Below, in pieces: positions 9,838-21,636 of a stretch of DNA of 64,000 bases. The notes under the pieces are model-generated. The model ran no database searches. It was not told where the DNA came from and saw only the letters and a program-made list of their open reading frames with translations. How positions within the stretch are numbered: the first letter of the stretch is position 1; every line of letters starts with the position of its first letter. The position numbers were made by a program, and so were the translations under genes. The stretch is taken from contig CABHOV010000076.1 of assembly GCA_902168185.1 (NCBI GenBank), forward strand, positions 1 through 64,000, written 5' to 3'. The DNA is from an uncultured Bacteroides sp. Its GTDB lineage: Bacteria > Bacteroidota > Bacteroidia > Cytophagales > Cyclobacteriaceae.

Positions 9838-11313
9838 ATGATTAAACATGTAAGTTATGCAGTAGCCATATCGTTGGCGATGGTCTGCGGATGCAGCCAG
9901 GAAGAAGAAATTACGACCACCAGGGCCGTGGTTCCCGAGGTTGTCAATAATCAGGACAAACGTCTTGGTGCCGGTAGCATTGCTGGTGTAAACTGGGCCG
10001 ATGGCCGGGATAACTTTGTTGATGGCTGGGTAATTCCATCCGGACTGACGTCTTCTGATAATTATTCTACAGTTCAAGCCAAAGCGAATTCTATTCTCAC
10101 AGCCTTTCAAACAAACATGGCGGGTGTTAACACGGTACGGCTACCAGTTAATCCGAACAGCGTACTGGAATCCTGGTGGAGTGCTTATACCGGTGCCATG
10201 GATGCAGCACTCAGTAAAAACATGAAGGTGATCCTTGCCTGCTGGGAAAGCGCATCTTCGCGTGACGGGCGTATTGATAACACCACGCAATTTTGGAGTA
10301 TGTGGCAAACCATCGTAAATAAATATGGCAACAATGCGAATGTATACTTCGAAGTATTCAATGAACCGCATGGCTATAGCTTGTCTGAGTTAACCACGAT
10401 CTATGCCGAGTGGCTTTCACGTTATCCTTCTGTACCACATGGAAGAATTCTTCTGGGAGGAACCGGCTATTCTGAAAATGTTACTGCCGTAGGTGCTGAT
10501 AGTCGTTTCAGTAATTGTCTGCTCGCATTGCACAACTATGCTTTCTGGACTACACATGCTACTGCTGCACAGTGGGAACAAGACTGGCAAAACCGCATCG
10601 GCAATTACGCCAGCCGTACCGTTGTAACCGAGTATGGTGCACCGATGACTACTGGAAAAAATTACACTGGTGTCGCCAACGGCGACAATGAGATAGCCTA
10701 TATCCAGGGGTCTACCAACAAATTCAGAAACAGTCAGATTGCAAGTGTATACTGGCCTGGCTTACGTGATGGCGACAGCTATAGCATTCAACAACGTGGA
10801 GGAAGTGGCAATAACATCACGCTCACGACAACCAATAACTCTGGCGTTACGCGGATCCGTTATGGTTGGGGATATGGTGGCTTTGAACCCAATAGTTACT
10901 ATCGCATCACGAATCGGAACAGCAGCAGAGTACTTGACGTGAACGGTGCTGCTACTACCGATGGCGCAAGTGTAATACAATGGACATGGAGTGGTGGTAA
11001 CAACCAGCAGTGGCGTATCGTAGATATAGGTGACGGCTATTACAGGATCACAAATCGCAACAGTGGTGATGCAATGGATGTGAACCAGGCTTCAACAACA
11101 AATGGCGCACCTATCATTCAATGGCCTTGGAACGGTGGCAATAATCAGCAATGGCAAATCATTGACAACGGAGGAGGCTACTACCGGATCATCAACAGAA
11201 ATAGCGGCAGTGCGCTGGATGTAAATCAGGGCTCCACTGCGAATGGCGCAACAGTCATTCAATGGCCATGGAATGGCGGAAATAATCAGCAGTGGCAGGT
11301 TGTTGTGCAGTAA
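9838..11313 (+). CDS. GH5 glycoside hydrolase lipoprotein with C-terminal ricin-type beta-trefoil
   Basis: This is probably a surface or periplasmic endo-acting glycanase. The N-terminal signal ends in a Cys at residue 19 (a plausible lipobox). The GH5 TIM barrel spans about 42-315: 'NTVRLPV' near 98-104, the acid/base Glu176 in 'FEVFNEPHG', a conserved His in 'ALHNY', and the nucleophile Glu265 in 'VVTEYGAP'. Three tandem 47-aa repeats (about 354-491), each with 'YYRI.NRNS' and 'GGNNQQW', make up a ricin-B-like carbohydrate-binding trefoil. The gene is divergent from the HTCS/SusCD genes and is the only glycanase of the locus in the window. The GH5 subfamily, and so the substrate (cellulose, mannan, xyloglucan or other), cannot be decided from sequence reading. 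Confidence 0.88.
   Translation: MIKHVSYAVAISLAMVCGCSQEEEITTTRAVVPEVVNNQDKRLGAGSIAGVNWADGRDNFVDGWVIPSGLTSSDNYSTVQAKANSILTAFQTNMAGVNTVRLPVNPNSVLESWWSAYTGAMDAALSKNMKVILACWESASSRDGRIDNTTQFWSMWQTIVNKYGNNANVYFEVFNEPHGYSLSELTTIYAEWLSRYPSVPHGRILLGGTGYSENVTAVGADSRFSNCLLALHNYAFWTTHATAAQWEQDWQNRIGNYASRTVVTEYGAPMTTGKNYTGVANGDNEIAYIQGSTNKFRNSQIASVYWPGLRDGDSYSIQQRGGSGNNITLTTTNNSGVTRIRYGWGYGGFEPNSYYRITNRNSSRVLDVNGAATTDGASVIQWTWSGGNNQQWRIVDIGDGYYRITNRNSGDAMDVNQASTTNGAPIIQWPWNGGNNQQWQIIDNGGGYYRIINRNSGSALDVNQGSTANGATVIQWPWNGGNNQQWQVVVQ
10897..11310 (+). repeat. Three 141-bp tandem coding repeats (beta-trefoil subdomains)
   Basis: Units begin at 10897, 11038 and 11179 with an exact 141-bp period; the last is 132 bp. 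They encode the three lobes of the ricin-type lectin domain. The identity between units (for example 'GGNNQQW' in all three) suggests recent duplication or continuing homogenisation. Confidence 0.85.
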
Positions 11314-11381
11314 ATACTTAAAGTAGTAGTATGTGCGAGCAACGCACCTGATTTACACCTGAGTTATTCAGGATATTATAA

Positions 11382-11420
11382 AATAGGGCTGTCTCTTTTT
11401 AGGCAGCTCTATTTTTTTTT
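11382..11420 (+). terminator. Intrinsic terminator after the GH5 gene
   Basis: The stem AATAGGGCTGTC / GGCAGCTCTATT (with G-T wobbles) is followed by a run of nine T. It ends GH5 transcription and separates it from the PqqD-HprK cassette. Confidence 0.8.
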
Positions 11421-11563: not shown

Positions 11564-11613
11564 GAAAAACTTTGCCTTGTGTATATAATTTCGTGCCCTT
11601 ATCTTTAAGGATT

Positions 11614-11994
11614 ATGACCTATACGATCGATACAAATAAAGTAGTGAGTGAGATTTTTAATGACGAAGCCGTTATCGTGAATTTGGCGAGTGGAGCGTAC
11701 TATAGCTTTAAAGGATCTGCCATTGCAATCTGGCAGCTGATTGGTGCTGGCTATAGCGATCAGGAAGTTATTGAACAATTAAAAGACTCGGAGTCCATCA
11801 ACCAATTTATAGCCTTTTTGGTGCAAGAGAACCTGGTTACAACATCGGATGTAACGGTGAAGGAACCAATAACAATAGATCTGCAATTCGTTCGTCCTGA
11901 ATACAAAAAGTATGACGACATGAAAGATCTTCTGCTACTGGATCCAATCCATGAAGTTGATCAGACGGGATGGCCTCATAAAAAAGCGGAATGA
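11614..11994 (+). CDS. PqqD-family peptide-binding chaperone
   Basis: PqqD-like proteins bind the leader of a ribosomally made peptide and present it to modifying enzymes. This 126-aa protein has the family core at about residues 15-80: 'EAVIVNLASGAYYSFKGSAIAIWQLI', then a helical segment and 'FLVQENLV'. The ORF track begins at a TTG 14 codons upstream. I prefer the ATG at 11614 because the family alignment starts just after it; a TATCTTTA box ends only 6 bp before it, with a TTG 20 bp further upstream, so transcription may be nearly leaderless (low confidence). The stop overlaps the kinase-like gene (ATGA). It is the first gene of a six-gene overlapping cassette. Confidence 0.82.
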   Translation: MTYTIDTNKVVSEIFNDEAVIVNLASGAYYSFKGSAIAIWQLIGAGYSDQEVIEQLKDSESINQFIAFLVQENLVTTSDVTVKEPITIDLQFVRPEYKKYDDMKDLLLLDPIHEVDQTGWPHKKAE

Positions 11995-13025
11995 ACGCTT
12001 CGCATCCCACACAGTTTTTTAATACTCTCAAGGCATTATATTCAAGTTCATCTACAGGGCAAAGCTCTGCGGTTCATGTTCGGCTGGCGGAGAATTTCCT
12101 CACGATCCATTTTTCGCGGCCTGAAATAAAAGCCTATATGCTTTCATCGTTGTCACATATACTGGTTGACAATGTGCATTCATCGGCTATAACTATATAT
12201 TGCTTTGATAGTCCATTGCTGACTACATTTCCATGGCAAGGTCAAAATTACGGTGTTCAGGGTGCTATTGAAGGTTTTAATACAACTCGCTTTCAAACGG
12301 CTTACCAGCATGGATCAGGCGCTGTAATGATGTATGACCATGATACAAAAGAAGGTATATACTGGGTTAAAGACTTCAATGATATTCCGTACTGGGAGCG
12401 AAGTTTTCCGTTTCGTACCATTCTACATTGGTGGTCAAGGGATACAACCCTCCTGCTACTGCACGCTGCCGGTATAGGACAAAAGTATTCTTCAGCACTT
12501 CTCTCTGGCAAAAGTGGCTCCGGCAAATCAAGCACCACCCTGTCATGCCTGCTAAGGGATGATCTCCAAATTGCAGGCGATGATTATGTACTCGTTGACA
12601 CGGAAACTCCCATGCTATATTCACTTTACAATTGTGCTAAAGTTGAATGGGACAATTTAGAGAGGCTTGATTTTTTAAAGCCGCTAGTCAATACGAATAT
12701 TAAAGAGGCAGAGAAAGCAATGATCTTTATGCACGACACGTGTAGACAAAAGGTGATGCAAAAAAGCAGACTTGATTATGCATTCATTCCTGTAGTCTGC
12801 AACGCGAATAAGACCACTATTGTGGAATGCACAGAAGCTGAAGTATTAAAAAGTATTGCACCCACCACGATGTTTCAACTGCCTTCAGGGCAAACCGAAA
12901 CGTTTAAAAAATGCATTGCATTGACTAAACAACTGAAGCCCTATAGAATTGAGCTTGGAACAGAGGCATCTGAAATAGCGGCGGTCATTTCAGAATTTTT
13001 CATCCAAAAAAGGCAAATGCTATGA
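11991..13025 (+). CDS. HPr-kinase-like (HprK-related) protein
   Basis: This 344-aa protein has the C-terminal nucleotide-binding fold of HPr serine kinases: 'LLLLHAAGIG', a Walker A 'SGKSGSGKSS' at about 172-181, and 'AGDDYVLVD' at about 195-203. The N-terminal 150 residues match the uncharacterised module usual in RiPP-associated homologues. Relatives encoded beside PqqD and nucleotidyltransferase genes occur in lasso clusters, where a kinase of this type phosphorylates the C-terminal Ser of paeninodin-type peptides (established). That this one acts on a peptide is inference. It overlaps PqqD by 4 bp and the next GT2 gene by 4 bp, so translational coupling is likely. Confidence 0.8.
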   Translation: MNASHPTQFFNTLKALYSSSSTGQSSAVHVRLAENFLTIHFSRPEIKAYMLSSLSHILVDNVHSSAITIYCFDSPLLTTFPWQGQNYGVQGAIEGFNTTRFQTAYQHGSGAVMMYDHDTKEGIYWVKDFNDIPYWERSFPFRTILHWWSRDTTLLLLHAAGIGQKYSSALLSGKSGSGKSSTTLSCLLRDDLQIAGDDYVLVDTETPMLYSLYNCAKVEWDNLERLDFLKPLVNTNIKEAEKAMIFMHDTCRQKVMQKSRLDYAFIPVVCNANKTTIVECTEAEVLKSIAPTTMFQLPSGQTETFKKCIALTKQLKPYRIELGTEASEIAAVISEFFIQKRQML

Positions 13026-13741
13026 TGATCTCCGTGATCATGCCGGTATACAACGGAGCTGCCTATATACAGGAAGCTATAGGAAGTATTGTAGCCCAAC
13101 ATGTAACTGATATAGCCTTGGAAATTATCATCGTGGATGATGGTTCTACAGATGCTACCAGTGAGATCATCCATACATTGCATAATCCTGATATCCGATA
13201 TATTCATCAACAGCAGAGCGGCCCTTCAAAAGCAAGAAACACGGGTATACTTCAGGCACGAGGCGACCTGATCGCATTTTTAGATGCAGATGATTACTGG
13301 CCTTTGACTAAATTAAAACATCAGCTATCCTTCCTGGAAGAGAATCAGAACGTTGATGTGGTTGGCGGCTTGATCGAATATGTATATATGCCGGGTTCGG
13401 AATATAGAAAAGAACAAATAAAAATTGATACACCTGTTTTTAATGTTCAGCTGGGTGGATTGATCGTTCGCAAAAAAGTATTTGATACCGTAGGATATTT
13501 TAACGAACAACTTCATTTCTCGGAAGACCAGGATTGGATACTTCGCATAAAGGAATCAAATGTTCCCATGACTATTCTGAATGAGACCGTTCTTTTATAT
13601 CGTATTCATCCCGGAAACATGACCTTGCATAAAACCTTGAAAGACCTCGGTGTGTTACGTGCGTTGAAGTTATCACTTGACAGAAGAAGACAAAAGCCGG
13701 AAGATCCATTGAATCCAATTCCCCATGAAGGCAAAGATTAG
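13022..13741 (+). CDS. GT2-family glycosyltransferase (first of a pair)
   Basis: This 239-aa soluble GT-A fold enzyme is predicted to move a sugar from a nucleotide sugar. It has 'ISVIMPVYNGAAYIQEAIGSI' at the start, 'IIIVDDGSTDAT' near 37-48, and the metal-binding 'AFLDADDYW' near 90-98. 'FSEDQDWILRI' further on fits the catalytic-base region of the family. It is short for the family and has no membrane helix. Its tail 'LSLDRRRQ' closely matches the tail of the next gene ('AALDRRRQ'). It overlaps the kinase-like gene (4 bp) and the second GT2 (17 bp). The acceptor is unknown; the setting suggests a peptide (inference). Confidence 0.87.
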   Translation: MMISVIMPVYNGAAYIQEAIGSIVAQHVTDIALEIIIVDDGSTDATSEIIHTLHNPDIRYIHQQQSGPSKARNTGILQARGDLIAFLDADDYWPLTKLKHQLSFLEENQNVDVVGGLIEYVYMPGSEYRKEQIKIDTPVFNVQLGGLIVRKKVFDTVGYFNEQLHFSEDQDWILRIKESNVPMTILNETVLLYRIHPGNMTLHKTLKDLGVLRALKLSLDRRRQKPEDPLNPIPHEGKD

Positions 13742-14408
13742 TGTTATTCTTCCTGCATACAACGCAGGAAAATACATTGGTGAAGCTCTGCGAAGCGTTA
13801 TCGATCAAACTATACCTATACATGAAATTATTGTAATAGACGATGGTTCGACTGATAACACAAAGGATATAGTATCTGGTTTTCCTGTACGTTATTTTTA
13901 TCAGGCTAACTCAGGAACGGCAGCAGCCTTAAATGCGGGCCTTGAACAATCGTCTGGAGACTATCTCGCGTTTATAGATGCAGACGATGTCTGGATGCCG
14001 CAAAGACTATATATACAGCTGCAGGCATTTGAAAAAAATCCTTCGCTTGATATGGTTTTCGGATTAATGCAACAATTTGTTAGCCCTGAACTATCTGAGG
14101 ACGAGAAAAACAAAATAGAAGTAAACGTCGCTGAGGTGATGGTTGGTATTCACAAGTCTGCATGGCTAATAAAGCGAGACGCCTTCATGAGCGTAGGTTT
14201 ATTTGCAGGTGGATTTTTATTAGAGGAGTTTACAGATTGGTATGCACGGTCTAAAGAGAAGAAACTAAATGAGTTTGTTGTACAGGAAGTCGTGGCCAAA
14301 AGAAGAATACACCTATCGAATACATCACGTGTTCACAAAGATTTAAAAAAAGATTATCCACGTATATTAAAGGCCGCTTTAGATAGAAGACGACAACAAG
14401 AGCAATGA
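13725..14408 (+). CDS. GT2-family glycosyltransferase (second of a pair)
   Basis: This 227-aa paralogue of the preceding enzyme has the same order: 'ISVILPAYNAGKYIGEALRSV', 'IIVIDDGSTDNT' and 'AFIDADDVWMP'. The later acidic motif is 'LEEFTDWYARS', less like the canonical ED-W motif than its partner's. It ends in 'AALDRRRQQEQ', echoing the first enzyme's tail. Its ATG lies inside the end of the first GT gene, and its own stop overlaps the ABC gene by 4 bp. Two different GT2s in one cassette suggest sequential addition of two sugars, or use of two donors (inference). Confidence 0.86.
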   Translation: MKAKISVILPAYNAGKYIGEALRSVIDQTIPIHEIIVIDDGSTDNTKDIVSGFPVRYFYQANSGTAAALNAGLEQSSGDYLAFIDADDVWMPQRLYIQLQAFEKNPSLDMVFGLMQQFVSPELSEDEKNKIEVNVAEVMVGIHKSAWLIKRDAFMSVGLFAGGFLLEEFTDWYARSKEKKLNEFVVQEVVAKRRIHLSNTSRVHKDLKKDYPRILKAALDRRRQQEQ

Positions 14409-16039
14409 AGATTTTAAGTTCTATCCGCTTTCTGATCGCTTCCTTCCATCAAAGAATATGGATCGTTGTCTTTTTCTCCGTTCTTCTGTCAGCACTTCTC
14501 ATACCTGTAAGTTTTTTGGTAAAGATCATCTTTGATCAGGCCATCCCAAACGCAGACATTCGTCTGTTACTAAAGCTCACCTTAACGTTAATAGCATTGA
14601 TGGCATGCAGTGGTATCTTTTCTATATATACCCGAGCAACGATAATACGTCATACGAAACATGCTATCTCCGGTATTCGTAATTCATTAACGGCAAAATT
14701 ACTCCGCATGTCGCATGTCTCCTATCAACAGGCAGACCTGTCCAGAATTCACAAAGTTCTGGTTTATGATACCGAGAAGCTTGACAATTTTGCCAACGCT
14801 ATATTTTCAGTCATAATACCTTCTGCTTGCATCAGCCTTTGCCTGGCAGTTATACTGCTAATCCTCAATGTGCAGATGAGTCTTCTGCTATTTATAGTCG
14901 CACCTTTCATATTATTGCTTACAGAGCTACTAAGGCGCGCCTGTAAAAAAAGCCTGCATCAGTTTCAACTTTCATTTGAGAACTTCCACCGGAAATCGCT
15001 TTTTCTTTTAGAGCTTAACAAGCTCATTAAAGTTTCATCGACGCAGCAGAAAGAGGCTGATTTCCATAAAGAAATTATAACCGAGTTGGAAGACTCCAGC
15101 CTGAAGATGGCCATCGGCTATATAAAGATGTCCAATTACCAGGAAGTAATTTTTTCAATAAGCAGTATCATATTGCTGGCATGGGGCAGCTATACCGTGA
15201 TGAAAGGCGAAATGACTATCGGCACGCTGATGTCATTTTACTTTTGCCTGTTTTTATTAAAAAGATACTTAACCACGATTGGCAATGCAGTCCCCGCTGT
15301 TTTAGAGGGATCAGATTCATGGCAGCAATGTACCAGTATATTAAAAGAAGAAAATGACGAGGTATATACCGGCACAACGCGCGGTGAATTTGACGGAAGA
15401 ATCGAATGTAAGGATCTTACCTTTTCGTTTGGTGAGCTAGTACTATTTAAAAAATATAATCTCTCGTTGCGCCCCGGGGAAACAACGCTGGTAGTAGGTC
15501 CGAATGGTTCTGGCAAAAGTACGCTGGTAAATCTGATACTCGGATTGTACCAACCACAGGGAGGTACCCTCTATGCGAGTGGTATTCCCTATTCAACATG
15601 GGACATTCAATACCTGCGAAGTAAAATAGCCGTAGTATTACAAGAGGACACTACGTTTCAAGGTACTATACTTGATAATATAGTATATGGTATTTCCGGG
15701 GTTGACATACCCGCTGTACAACAGGCGGTACAAAATTCAGGTTTACATGAATTCATTGAATCACTTCCCGATGGGCTTAATACCATGATCGGTGAGAAGG
15801 GAGCAAAACTTTCAGGAGGACAACGGCAGAAGATTGCTATAGCCCGATGTTTCCTCGCCAAGGCATCACTCATCATATTGGATGAGCCGACCAATCACCT
15901 CGATCAGCACTCAGTAGAACTCATTGCTACTACACTAAAGAACCAGGCACACACTCCATCTATACTTATCATCTCGCACACTGCAAAATTGCAATCGCTG
16001 GCTGATAACATCATTGAACTAAAAACATCTTATTCCTGA
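14405..16039 (+). CDS. ABC exporter, fused membrane and ATPase domains
   Basis: This 544-aa half-transporter has five to six transmembrane helices in the first 310 residues and one ATPase domain with Walker A 'GPNGSGKST' (about 364-372), signature 'LSGGQRQKIAIAR' (about 468-480) and Walker B 'LIILDEP'. It lacks the N-terminal C39 peptidase domain of bacteriocin exporters, so it would not trim a double-glycine leader. Its place between the glycosyltransferases and the nucleotidyltransferase, with 4-bp and 1-bp overlaps, fits export of the cassette's product, as in lasso-peptide loci (inference). Confidence 0.9.
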   Translation: MKILSSIRFLIASFHQRIWIVVFFSVLLSALLIPVSFLVKIIFDQAIPNADIRLLLKLTLTLIALMACSGIFSIYTRATIIRHTKHAISGIRNSLTAKLLRMSHVSYQQADLSRIHKVLVYDTEKLDNFANAIFSVIIPSACISLCLAVILLILNVQMSLLLFIVAPFILLLTELLRRACKKSLHQFQLSFENFHRKSLFLLELNKLIKVSSTQQKEADFHKEIITELEDSSLKMAIGYIKMSNYQEVIFSISSIILLAWGSYTVMKGEMTIGTLMSFYFCLFLLKRYLTTIGNAVPAVLEGSDSWQQCTSILKEENDEVYTGTTRGEFDGRIECKDLTFSFGELVLFKKYNLSLRPGETTLVVGPNGSGKSTLVNLILGLYQPQGGTLYASGIPYSTWDIQYLRSKIAVVLQEDTTFQGTILDNIVYGISGVDIPAVQQAVQNSGLHEFIESLPDGLNTMIGEKGAKLSGGQRQKIAIARCFLAKASLIILDEPTNHLDQHSVELIATTLKNQAHTPSILIISHTAKLQSLADNIIELKTSYS

Positions 16040-17235
16040 TGCATACTTTACCACAGAATTTTTATAATCCATTACCCAACGCGCATCAAACTTTATTATT
16101 AAAAGCTTGTCTTCTGGATAACGATCAAGCGATTCAACATTGGGAAAAATGGATGTCAGTAAATGGTTTTAGCAACCTGACAAGCGAAAAATCTTCCGGT
16201 ATACTTCCGCAAGTTTATGATCCACTTGATTTTTCATCACAACGTCTGCTTGCTTTACTATATAAGAAAATGTCTTCAGCCGGTGTCAATCATCCTTTGG
16301 TCAATTCATTAAAGGGATACTACAGGTACGTATGGGTGCGAAACCAGGTAATTAAAGAGCAGCTTAAAAGTATTGTCGAGATACTCAACGCACAAGGCAT
16401 AACACATCTGGTCATTAAAGGTTTCCCGATGATTGAGGCTTACTATAAAGATTTGGGGACGCGGTCTGTATTGGATCTTGACATCATGGTCCACCCTGAT
16501 CATTGGTCTAAAGCGCTGGAGATTTTAGCAAAAGAAGGATGGGCAGGCAAAGACGCCATGTATATACCGGAAGCGGTGCAAGATACATTAGTACATGCGA
16601 CACACTTCGTAAAAGATATATTTGAAATAGATCTTCACATCCGTTTTCATGATTTTCCACTGACGGAAAATACTGTAAACAGTTTCTGGAATGAGGCCGT
16701 GACGTATAAGCCAGGACATAAAATGCTGCGTGCGGAACATCAGTTGATCAGTGCCCTTATTCATGGCTATGATATAGGAGGCGATACAGTACTTCGCGCC
16801 ATTGCCGACACAACGTATATCATTCGAAATACACCTAACTTCGACTGGAACATAGTTATAGATATAGTGCAAGAGAATAATTTACAAATTCCCGCAAAGG
16901 TCTTATTAGAGCATCTGAATCAGGAAGGATTTTGTGTTATACCAGAACATGTTTTGGCAGCGCTGCAGAATTATTCCCTCGAAAGTAAAGAAGCTAAATA
17001 TTTCAGTTTACTCACCACTCCGGATGTTGGCAACGGCTATAAACTTTTTAAGCTTCGACTATTGCTATTAAATTTAGTGAAGGTCTCCATTGTAGAAAAA
17101 GGCAAACTTCTTCTCAATACATACAAATATCAATGGGGGGCACAATCAATTCTTAAATTAGCATATCGTACAACACAGGTAGTTATTGATAAATTTAAGT
17201 CTCCCGATAAAACCGTTGTCACAAGAAGGTTTTAG
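16039..17235 (+). CDS. Nucleotidyltransferase-family protein (NTP_transf_5-like)
   Basis: This 398-aa protein carries the signature of the uncharacterised nucleotidyltransferase family PF14907: 'LVIKGFPMIEAYY' (about 124-136), then 'GTRSVLDLDIMVHP' (about 140-153) with the two catalytic-type Asp residues, and later 'IFEIDLHIRF'. Such proteins recur in RiPP clusters together with PqqD and HprK-like genes; in some lasso systems they modify the phosphorylated peptide (family knowledge, recalled not searched). The start codon overlaps the ABC stop (TGATG). It is the last gene of the cassette; 71 bp of AT-rich sequence follows. Confidence 0.8.
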   Translation: MHTLPQNFYNPLPNAHQTLLLKACLLDNDQAIQHWEKWMSVNGFSNLTSEKSSGILPQVYDPLDFSSQRLLALLYKKMSSAGVNHPLVNSLKGYYRYVWVRNQVIKEQLKSIVEILNAQGITHLVIKGFPMIEAYYKDLGTRSVLDLDIMVHPDHWSKALEILAKEGWAGKDAMYIPEAVQDTLVHATHFVKDIFEIDLHIRFHDFPLTENTVNSFWNEAVTYKPGHKMLRAEHQLISALIHGYDIGGDTVLRAIADTTYIIRNTPNFDWNIVIDIVQENNLQIPAKVLLEHLNQEGFCVIPEHVLAALQNYSLESKEAKYFSLLTTPDVGNGYKLFKLRLLLLNLVKVSIVEKGKLLLNTYKYQWGAQSILKLAYRTTQVVIDKFKSPDKTVVTRRF

Positions 17236-19430: not shown

Positions 19431-20441
19431 ATGATAGACATACAACAATCCGCCCATGCATATAGCACTCAGCAAGATATAGTACAGACAGAAGAAGATC
19501 GTGTTCTCTCTTTCCGGGAAGATGTCCTTGCAGGATTAAAATCTCACCCTAAGCATTTGAGCTCAAAGTATTTCTATGACGCAAAGGGCGATGCGCTATT
19601 TCAGCAGATCATGAACTGTTCTGAATATTACCTGACACGCTGCGAGTTGGAAATATTTCGTGATCAGACATCCAGTCTCATAAACGCCATTTCTAACGCA
19701 ACCTCACAATCTTTCGATCTGATCGAACTTGGAGTGGGCGATGGTATAAAATCAAAATACTTGATACGTGAATTACTTGACAGAAGAATAGAATTCACAT
19801 ATCTGCCGGTTGATATATCCGGAAATATACTATCGCATCTCGAAACAAGTCTCTCTGATTTGCAAGGATTAAACTTAGTCTCCCTGGAAGGCGAATACTT
19901 TGACATGCTACGAGAAGCTACAAAGATTTCGGGCAATCGAAAAGTTATTCTATTTCTGGGAGCAAACATCGGCAATATGTCTGCGAATGAAGCACAGGCT
20001 TTCTGTAAAGATTTAAGAAGCATGCTGCAACCGGGCGATGTAGTATTGATGGGTTTTGACCTAAAGAAGAACCCACACACTATATTAGAAGCCTACAATG
20101 ATAAAGGAGGGATCACCCGTGATTTCAATCTCAACCTCTTGAAGCGAATCAATACAGAACTGGAAGGCAACTTTAATCTTCACCAGTTTACACATTACCA
20201 AACATACGACCCTGAAACCGGTGCATGCAAAAGTTACCTGGTAAGCAATATAAAGCAAACGGTCATCGTAGATGGTACATCTATATCGTTCAGCGAAGGC
20301 GAATGGATCTATATGGAAGTATCGCAAAAATATAGTCCTAACGAGATTGAGAAACTCGCGAGCCATTCCGGTTTTAGTATCATCACCAATTTCACAGATT
20401 CAAAACGTTGGTTTATCGATAGCGTATGGACAGCACAATGA
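19431..20441 (+). CDS. egtD: L-histidine N-alpha-methyltransferase EgtD
   Basis: EgtD trimethylates histidine with S-adenosylmethionine to form hercynine, the first step of ergothioneine synthesis. The 336-aa protein has the family signatures in order: 'LSSKYFYDAKGDALFQQI' (about 43-60), 'EYYLTRCELEIF', the SAM loop 'LIELGVGDGIKSKYLI', 'LPVDISGNIL', 'LGANIGNMS', and a C-terminal 'YSPNEIEKLASHSGF'. Length is as expected. It is followed 31 bp later by EgtB, confirming the pathway. Confidence 0.93.
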   Translation: MIDIQQSAHAYSTQQDIVQTEEDRVLSFREDVLAGLKSHPKHLSSKYFYDAKGDALFQQIMNCSEYYLTRCELEIFRDQTSSLINAISNATSQSFDLIELGVGDGIKSKYLIRELLDRRIEFTYLPVDISGNILSHLETSLSDLQGLNLVSLEGEYFDMLREATKISGNRKVILFLGANIGNMSANEAQAFCKDLRSMLQPGDVVLMGFDLKKNPHTILEAYNDKGGITRDFNLNLLKRINTELEGNFNLHQFTHYQTYDPETGACKSYLVSNIKQTVIVDGTSISFSEGEWIYMEVSQKYSPNEIEKLASHSGFSIITNFTDSKRWFIDSVWTAQ

Positions 20442-20472
20442 TCTATACTATATATAATTCAAATCCAGAGTC

Positions 20473-21636
20473 ATGAATAACGATTTACTGCAGCAATATA
20501 AACGCATACGCCTGCAATCCGAGCGCATATGTTCTCCTCTTGGCAATGAAGATTATGTCGTTCAACCCATTGTTGATGTAAGTCCACCCAAATGGCATCT
20601 GGGCCATACTACATGGTTCTTCGAGACATTCATACTTAAACCATTCGCAAGTAATTACCGCGAGTTTGATAATCAGTATAACTTTGTATTCAACAGTTAT
20701 TACGAAACAGTAGGTGCGCGTGTTATCCGCACGGATCGTGGTAACTTGAGTCGCCCATCGGTTTCCGAAGTTTTTCGATATAGAAAATATATTGACGAAC
20801 AGATGGAACACTTTCTCAGTAATAGCGCTATTAATGAGCCACTACGCGATACCATCGTTCTGGGCTTACATCACGAACAACAGCATCAGGAATTACTCTA
20901 TACCGATATAAAATACATACTGGGTCACAACCCCCTATTCCCCGCGTATAGTGCAGATCACGAATTTACGAGACCTGCTACCAACAACGCAGCACCAACG
21001 GTTATACCTATACCTGCAGGCATTTACGAGATTGGATTCAAAGGTGATGGCTTCTGTTTTGATAATGAGTACAAGCATCACAAAGTTTACCTGGAAGACT
21101 ATACCATTGCCACAACACTAGTTAGTAATCAAGAGTACCTTGATTTTATCCACGATGGAGGATATAGAGATTTCAGGCACTGGCATGCTGAAGGTTGGGA
21201 TTGGGTAAAGACCAACAAGATTAATGCGCCACTATATTGGCATTGTATACACGGAGTTTGGATGTACTATACATTTAACGGTCTCAAACCTATAGATTTG
21301 GATGAGGCTGTCTGTCATGTGAGTTTCTATGAAGCTTCTGCATTCGCCTCGTGGAAAGGGAAACGATTGCCAACAGAAGCCGAATGGGAAATTGCATCAC
21401 CGAATTTTGATTGGGGTCAACGTTGGGAGTGGACAGGCAGCGCTTATTTACCGTATCCGGGATTTAAAAAAGCGGCCGGTGCTATTGGTGAATATAACGG
21501 CAAGTTTATGGTTAACCAGATGGTATTGCGTGGTGCTTCCGTAGCAACGCCTGACGGACATAGCCGAAATACATATCGCAATTTTTTCCATGCACCTCAT
21601 CAATGGCAATTCACAGGGATAAGGCTTGCCGAATAG
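20473..21636 (+). CDS. egtB: EgtB-type sulfoxide synthase (DinB + FGE-like)
   Basis: This non-heme iron enzyme joins a thiol (cysteine or gamma-glutamylcysteine) to hercynine using oxygen. It has an N-terminal DinB-type helical domain with iron-ligand histidines in 'WHLGHTTWFFE' and 'LGLHHEQQHQELL' (about 135-147), then a formylglycine-enzyme-like domain ('LPTEAEWEIA', 'WEWTGSAYLPYPGF', 'RNFF.APHQWQFTGIRLA'). At 387 aa it is a stand-alone EgtB and not the larger OvoA fusion. No EgtA, EgtC or lyase gene is present here, so the later steps are encoded elsewhere or the enzyme uses cysteine directly (inference). Confidence 0.92.
   Translation: MNNDLLQQYKRIRLQSERICSPLGNEDYVVQPIVDVSPPKWHLGHTTWFFETFILKPFASNYREFDNQYNFVFNSYYETVGARVIRTDRGNLSRPSVSEVFRYRKYIDEQMEHFLSNSAINEPLRDTIVLGLHHEQQHQELLYTDIKYILGHNPLFPAYSADHEFTRPATNNAAPTVIPIPAGIYEIGFKGDGFCFDNEYKHHKVYLEDYTIATTLVSNQEYLDFIHDGGYRDFRHWHAEGWDWVKTNKINAPLYWHCIHGVWMYYTFNGLKPIDLDEAVCHVSFYEASAFASWKGKRLPTEAEWEIASPNFDWGQRWEWTGSAYLPYPGFKKAAGAIGEYNGKFMVNQMVLRGASVATPDGHSRNTYRNFFHAPHQWQFTGIRLAE

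Follow-up and report, generated by a model that had tools for sequence, protein, structure and literature searches.

Linear polyphosphorylated peptides (LPPs) were described by Popov et al. in 2026 from the lppA-K-B-S-D-N genes of Paenibacillus alginolyticus; according to the authors they are restricted to Bacillota, and their clusters also occur in capsule loci (PMC13381572). LppK yields a polyphosphorylated Ser3 and LppN was inactive in a heterologous host, for which the authors suggest a missing partner; the leaders of both lasso peptides and LPPs carry an RRE-binding motif of the form [Y/W]xxPx[L/V/I/F/A] (PMC13381572). In lasso clusters, HprK-like kinases phosphorylate a Ser of the precursor, and PsmN adds one or two hexoses to that Ser phosphate, either directly or after nucleotidylation (PMC9266682). 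Ruminal Butyrivibrio lasso clusters carry a nucleotidyltransferase (NTase), an HPr kinase and a family 2 glycosyltransferase (GT2) (PMC7533575).

We analysed a 64,000-nucleotide stretch of DNA (the window) that contains a six-gene cassette resembling these systems. Four of six LPP core functions are present (RRE, HprK-like kinase, NTP transferase and MsbA-like exporter) and, as in LPP clusters, there is no macrolactam cyclase. An earlier, sequence-only reading had put the system forward as a candidate undescribed one; it is not wholly undescribed, since this combination without a cyclase is the LPP core (PMC13381572). Also shared with LPP clusters are a YxxP-type RRE-binding motif and the frequent presence of glycosyltransferases nearby. 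However, the cassette holds a GT2 pair within the operon, it lacks the archaeal-type signal peptidase SpI (LppS), and no separate precursor with the YxxPxVLxHQxIxFETxxS of the LPP precursor was found near it. Moreover, the LPP RRE is discrete, whereas the cassette RRE is longer and bears a leader-like motif on the RRE protein itself. Using TIGR02228, we found the SpI-type signal peptidase in 0 of 14 genomes carrying this tailed protein, compared with 8 of 14 control genomes; for this reason, and with no separate precursor found, the cassette is not an LPP cluster by membership.

Paeninodin-type lasso clusters, including that of pseudomycoidin (psmK, psmN), have in common with the cassette an RRE (B1), an HprK-like kinase, a PF14907 NTase and an ABC transporter, but the cassette has no cyclase, B2 protease or precursor, and it has an RRE tail and the GT2 pair. 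The sequence-only reading had recognised this accessory set without cyclase and protease, and we agree: neither the six genes nor the window neighbours tested include an Asn-synthetase-like macrolactam cyclase, and no member of the lasso B2 family (PF13471) occurs in the cassette, in the window's whole genome or in 10 of the 13 other tail genomes. With no cyclase in the cassette and no B2 in the genome, the cassette is therefore not a lasso cluster by membership. The Butyrivibrio clusters share the NTase, HprK-like kinase and GT2, but unlike the cassette they hold complete lasso genes. Surface-glycan units with a flippase (an MsbA- or PglK-type ABC protein, or Amj) resemble the cassette in coupling GT2 enzymes to a flippase, and three of its relatives encode Amj; in contrast, the cassette lacks an initiating sugar transferase and a polymerase, and an RRE, a kinase and an NTase are not known to play a part in such units. 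Relative to lasso and LPP clusters, what is new is an RRE with a tail, a GT2 pair within the unit, the exchange of flippases and the host range.

Layout and gene assignments

The cassette lies on the forward strand at positions 11614-17235 and consists of six ORFs (11614-11994, 11991-13025, 13022-13741, 13725-14408, 14405-16039 and 16039-17235) that overlap by 4, 4, 17, 4 and 1 bp, in line with the earlier description of one coupled unit with overlaps of 1-17 bp. It is a conserved, rare, translationally coupled six-gene unit. A promoter-like TTG-N20-TATCTTTA stretch (11577-11607, forward strand), which we take to resemble Bacteroidota promoters, lies 5' of the PqqD start codon and, judged by eye, is common with changes to the window and to three related loci (L013, L014 and L015) upstream of the PqqD gene. 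Because this stretch is shared by four loci, the operon probably begins with PqqD. A terminator-like hairpin is found upstream of the cassette at 11380-11415, after a gene (9838-11313) for a secreted GH5 cellulase-like enzyme with a ricin-type lectin domain. Elsewhere in the window (19431-21636), a histidine-specific methyltransferase (Methyltransf_33) and an FGE-sulfatase/DinB protein are encoded in tandem, an arrangement comparable to ergothioneine EgtD/EgtB.

The first gene encodes a PqqD-like RRE domain in residues 1-75 (11614-11838, forward strand), with a PF05402 match (E = 5e-5) just over the cut-off and model matches to TbiB1 and lasso B1. The HprK/PEPCK-type kinase (11991-13025, forward strand) has the P-loop GKSGSGKS and a conserved D197-D198 pair; its HprK assignment falls below the Pfam cut-off, and the match to NCBIfam HprK_rel_A (9e-7) likewise stays below the cut-off of that profile. 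Its best profile matches are PDB chains of HprK (4e-4), and its AlphaFold model (pLDDT 89.6) matches the PEPCK fold (4e-10), which belongs to the superfamily of HprK. Two GT2 genes follow on the same strand, GT2a (13022-13741; PF00535, E = 6e-37) and GT2b (13725-14408; PF00535, E = 1e-35). In a tree, the GT2b sequences of most loci cluster together and those of GT2a largely do likewise, a grouping that suggests two conserved sugar transfers.

The fifth gene (14405-16039, forward strand) encodes an MsbA-type ABC half-transporter, with Pfam matches to the membrane domain (PF00664, 3e-18) and the ABC domain (PF00005, 1e-32); MsbA is its best NCBIfam profile (4e-79), below the cut-off. The ABC proteins of glycocin-type bacteriocins have a C39 peptidase for the double-Gly leader, whereas no C39 domain was found here, Pfam reporting ABC_membrane and ABC_tran only. 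The last gene (16039-17235, forward strand) encodes a PF14907 (NTP_transf_5) nucleotidyltransferase (E = 2e-31) with D146xD148 and D198 in conserved columns. It is the only PF14907 gene of the window's genome, and comparison with solved structures gave no informative match.

A conserved C-terminal tail on the PqqD protein

The PqqD protein combines the RRE, which has a lasso B1 fold, with an extremely conserved C-terminal tail. The sequence-only reading had missed this tail, as well as the missing flanking precursor and the exchange for Amj in relatives. The closest solved folds to the RRE model are those of TbiB1 with a lasso leader (5v1v, E = 5.7e-4) and a lasso B1 protein with a leader (6jx3). 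The tail follows the pattern [F/Y]xxPx[hydrophobic]xxYxDMxDLLxLDPIHxV...GWP: a leader-like motif, FVRPEY (residues 92-97; 11887-11904, forward strand), is followed by KKYDDMKDLLLLDPIHEVDQTGWPHKKAE (residues 98-126; 11905-11991, forward strand). Among aligned PqqD proteins the tail is better conserved than any other part, the RRE domain included: mean column identity is 0.63 in the tail, 0.31 in the RRE and 0.13 in the linker. When the window is compared with L014, tail codons 97-126 show 14 synonymous and no non-synonymous differences in 30 codons, compared with 19 and 9 among the 75 codons of the RRE and 7 and 10 among the 21 of the linker. Judged from these codons, the tail is under extreme purifying selection.

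In a phylum sample, profile matches that span the tail (E = 5.5e-28 or better) were confined to 5 of 346 genomes, while the remaining PqqD matches reached E = 1e-13 or worse and ended before the last tail columns. A search for the DPIHxV...GWP pattern in DNA, made independently of the RRE and the kinase, recovered 5 of 395 class genomes (reversed control, 0), and these are exactly the five genomes of that sample with a strong match to the HprK subfamily of the cassette; the tail pattern was found only in genomes that carry this subfamily. An order sample gave 5 positive genomes among 391. Since the samples overlap and the profile and pattern were built from the first-found members, these counts indicate rarity and are no unbiased census. 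The tail gave no relevant match to a known domain in Pfam or NCBIfam, its pattern was not found in viral contigs, and we found no mention of the motif in open-licence papers, so that a description elsewhere is possible.

Most relatives have a leader-like motif of the form [Y/F]xxPx[hydrophobic] at the same position (for example YECPVL, YEIPVL, YTHPLL, FEKPML and FLKPEI). Weak versions occur in L026, L033, L074, L075 and L123 (for example FKPAIL and LDKLTI), and none is clear in L036, L038, L039 and L122, which makes the motif a majority feature, not an invariant one. In the PqqD model, a strand is predicted at residues 96-100, with a mean pLDDT of 87 over residues 91-100 and low confidence past residue 100. 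Given the leader-like motif, the predicted strand and closest folds that are lasso B1 proteins with leader, it is plausible that the tail is bound in cis by its own RRE.

No tail column holds a conserved Ser or Thr across the tailed loci, and on this basis we rejected the tail as a Ser/Thr phospho-acceptor. Counted without gaps from the motif aromatic, the position of the phosphorylated LPP Ser3 coincides with the invariant tail residue D110. As a lead from this ungapped count, D110 might be a non-phosphorylatable mimic of Ser3.

Tailed loci in other genomes

The six-gene neighbourhood recurs elsewhere, with its order unchanged, in L013 (Ohtaekwangia koreensis; 95-98% identity to the window), L014 (a Flammeovirgaceae MAG; 77-85%) and L015 (a 'Chitinophaga' MAG; 76-83%). 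The flanks of the window and L013 differ from those of L014 and L015, and a gene order kept amid other flanks argues for an arrangement beyond chance. The 'Chitinophaga' label of the L015 MAG (CABHOK010000007.1) is probably wrong: its RpoB is 98% identical to that of the window's genome, which marks it as a close relative, and cross-order lateral transfer, as suggested by the label, was rejected.

Altogether we read 22 tailed loci, from Bacteroidota-type genomes and one cyanobacterial plasmid. An HprK gene is present in all 22, GT2 in 21 and the NTase in 20, and the genomes of both NTase-less loci carry an NTase at another tailed locus. On the Crinalium plasmid (NC_019735), the NTase and kinase genes are accompanied by two GT2 genes and one ABC gene. 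In more distant sets, genes have been rearranged or joined, with fusions of HprK+GT2a+GT2b in L032 and HprK+GT2 in L027, L073-L075 and L120, and GT2 genes number from one to about six per locus. An ABC gene is found in window-type loci and several others; in L119-L121 it is replaced by Amj, of the lipid II flippase family, and L119 otherwise keeps the window order, with Amj after the NTase. In L033-L036, L038, L039 and L073-L076, we saw no transporter gene over a distance of about 9.5 kb.

A second type of tailed locus (L036, L038, L039 and L122) carries GT4-like genes and a more divergent HprK (61-84 bits, where the first type reaches at least 248); both types are present in genomes G330, G271, G189 and G1170. 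Paralogous proteins of 421-480 aa with [TI]GFTDQL adjoin two tailed cassettes (L073:14799-17632 and L075:16058-18846), and the two that were tested had no meaningful Pfam match. Upstream of the cassette and divergent from it, L014 (3-3851) and L015 (1-8679) encode a giant Gly-rich secreted protein with TIG and PKD-like domains. We rejected it as a substrate, as it has no orthologue in the window's genome, which gave short weak matches only, or in G075.

One genome with a tailed cassette also holds a lasso-type cluster (L099:6557-12300) with an Asn-synthetase-like gene, an untailed PqqD, B2, two GT2 genes and a 61-aa ORF with WVTPKI, and so allows a within-genome comparison of free and fused leaders. 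In L040 (8867-11300), a PqqD-HprK-like fusion and an NTase adjoin a 58-aa protein that has a hydrophobic stretch without a twin Arg and, at its end, a variable Gly-rich part (RSPAAPGTDGGF). This protein is a candidate for the small substrate of another system, one that has no tail.

Proposed function and alternatives

The separate modified peptide proposed by the sequence-only reading was not found. Small ORFs flanking the operon, upstream and downstream, are not conserved, no conserved small ORF or associated precursor emerged from the neighbourhoods of relatives, and ORFs with the leader motif recur only as the PqqD protein; a separate precursor beside the operon was rejected on these grounds. 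Among 17 DPIHxV...GWP matches in the 14 tail genomes there is no free-standing copy, the matches lying within PqqD genes at every locus read.

We propose, at a probability of roughly 40%, that the six genes act together, directed by the RRE, in phospho-glycosylation and translocation, as a lasso/LPP tailoring set with its leader fused to the C terminus of the RRE. The RRE would bind its own leader-like tail in cis and hold the invariant DMxDLLxLDPIHxVxxxGWP at the position of a core peptide, as a platform for the enzymes. The HprK-like kinase would then phosphorylate an acceptor, which may be the tail or something delivered to it; the NTase would modify the acceptor phosphate, comparable to the hexose addition by PsmN in pseudomycoidin; GT2a and GT2b would attach further sugars; and the ABC transporter, or Amj in relatives, would carry the product across the inner membrane. 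Throughout, the RRE-tail protein would serve as organiser or carrier.

This reading is the most likely one given the recurrence of the six genes, the lasso B1 fold, the selection on the tail with its HprK co-occurrence, and the leader motif with its predicted strand. No separate conserved precursor was found near the cassettes, and the phosphorylation and glycosylation that the sequence-only reading had suggested are, by analogy, still the likely chemistry, as homologous kinases phosphorylate Ser and PsmN adds hexose. Against it, the tail has no conserved Ser or Thr, whereas known kinases use Ser; the leader-like motif is weak or unclear in nine loci, and the tail model has low confidence beyond residue 100; Amj, the substitute for ABC in relatives, is not a known peptide exporter; and NTase activity of LppN was not seen (PMC13381572).

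With Amj in place of the ABC in three relatives and additional glycan genes at some loci, a lipid-linked glycan is a serious rival, which we regard as possible, if rather doubtful. The unit would assemble a short, lipid-borne (phospho)oligosaccharide that ABC or Amj flips, the RRE-tail protein would scaffold the kinase, NTase and GT2 enzymes, and there would be no peptide. The MsbA-like ABC protein, the window order kept around Amj in L119, the variable number of GT2 genes and, near some loci, other glycosyltransferases, a sulfotransferase and an O-antigen-ligase-like gene (adjoining L032 only) are consistent with such a product. However, no initiating sugar-phosphate transferase, polymerase or nucleotide-sugar gene was found in the cassette or the tested window neighbours, an RRE with a leader-like tail is left unexplained, and Amj could possibly be self-protection of lipid II transport instead. 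The sequence-only reading had set a capsule or O-antigen context against a peptide, and here the picture is mixed: the gene adjoining L032, extra glycosyltransferases at several loci and Amj in three fit such a context, but peptide-modifying LPP clusters are also located in capsule loci (PMC13381572), and for this reason glycan-type neighbours do not decide between peptide and glycan.

It is unlikely that the system is a RiPP with an unlinked precursor, in which the RRE would take up a leader from another place in the genome and the fused tail would be a gate or pseudo-substrate displaced by that leader. Known kinases of the tailoring set do act on separate precursors, the tail lacks a conserved Ser or Thr, and the D110 lead would fit a pseudo-substrate. 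Yet no candidate precursor lies near any cassette, the DPIHxV...GWP matches include no free-standing copy, and the window's genome has neither B2 nor an SpI-type leader peptidase. Decay of a lasso or LPP cluster after loss of its cyclase, peptidase and precursor would account for the missing genes but is highly improbable and largely refuted by cassette conservation, with six open frames, retained catalytic motifs, a gene set that persists across many families and a tail under strong purifying selection.

A further-reaching form of the phospho-glycosylation reading, in which the PqqD protein would serve for recognition and at the same time be the precursor, is unlikely. Its tail would then be a fused leader plus an invariant core, and a conserved phospho-glycosylated product would be made on or from that core. 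If true, this would be a RiPP-like system that is its own substrate and needs neither a separate precursor nor any known leader peptidase, with an ABC transporter or lipid II-type flippase translocating the product. By analogy, the GT2 pair is a candidate for the kind of partner suggested to be missing for LppN, and the compact operon is suited to testing the role of the PF14907 'nucleotidyltransferase'. DPIHxV...GWP offers a signature for finding further members. These findings extend the RRE/HprK/NTase tailoring set, known from lasso and LPP clusters of Bacillota, to Bacteroidota-type genomes and a cyanobacterial plasmid, where the leader appears to be fused to the RRE.
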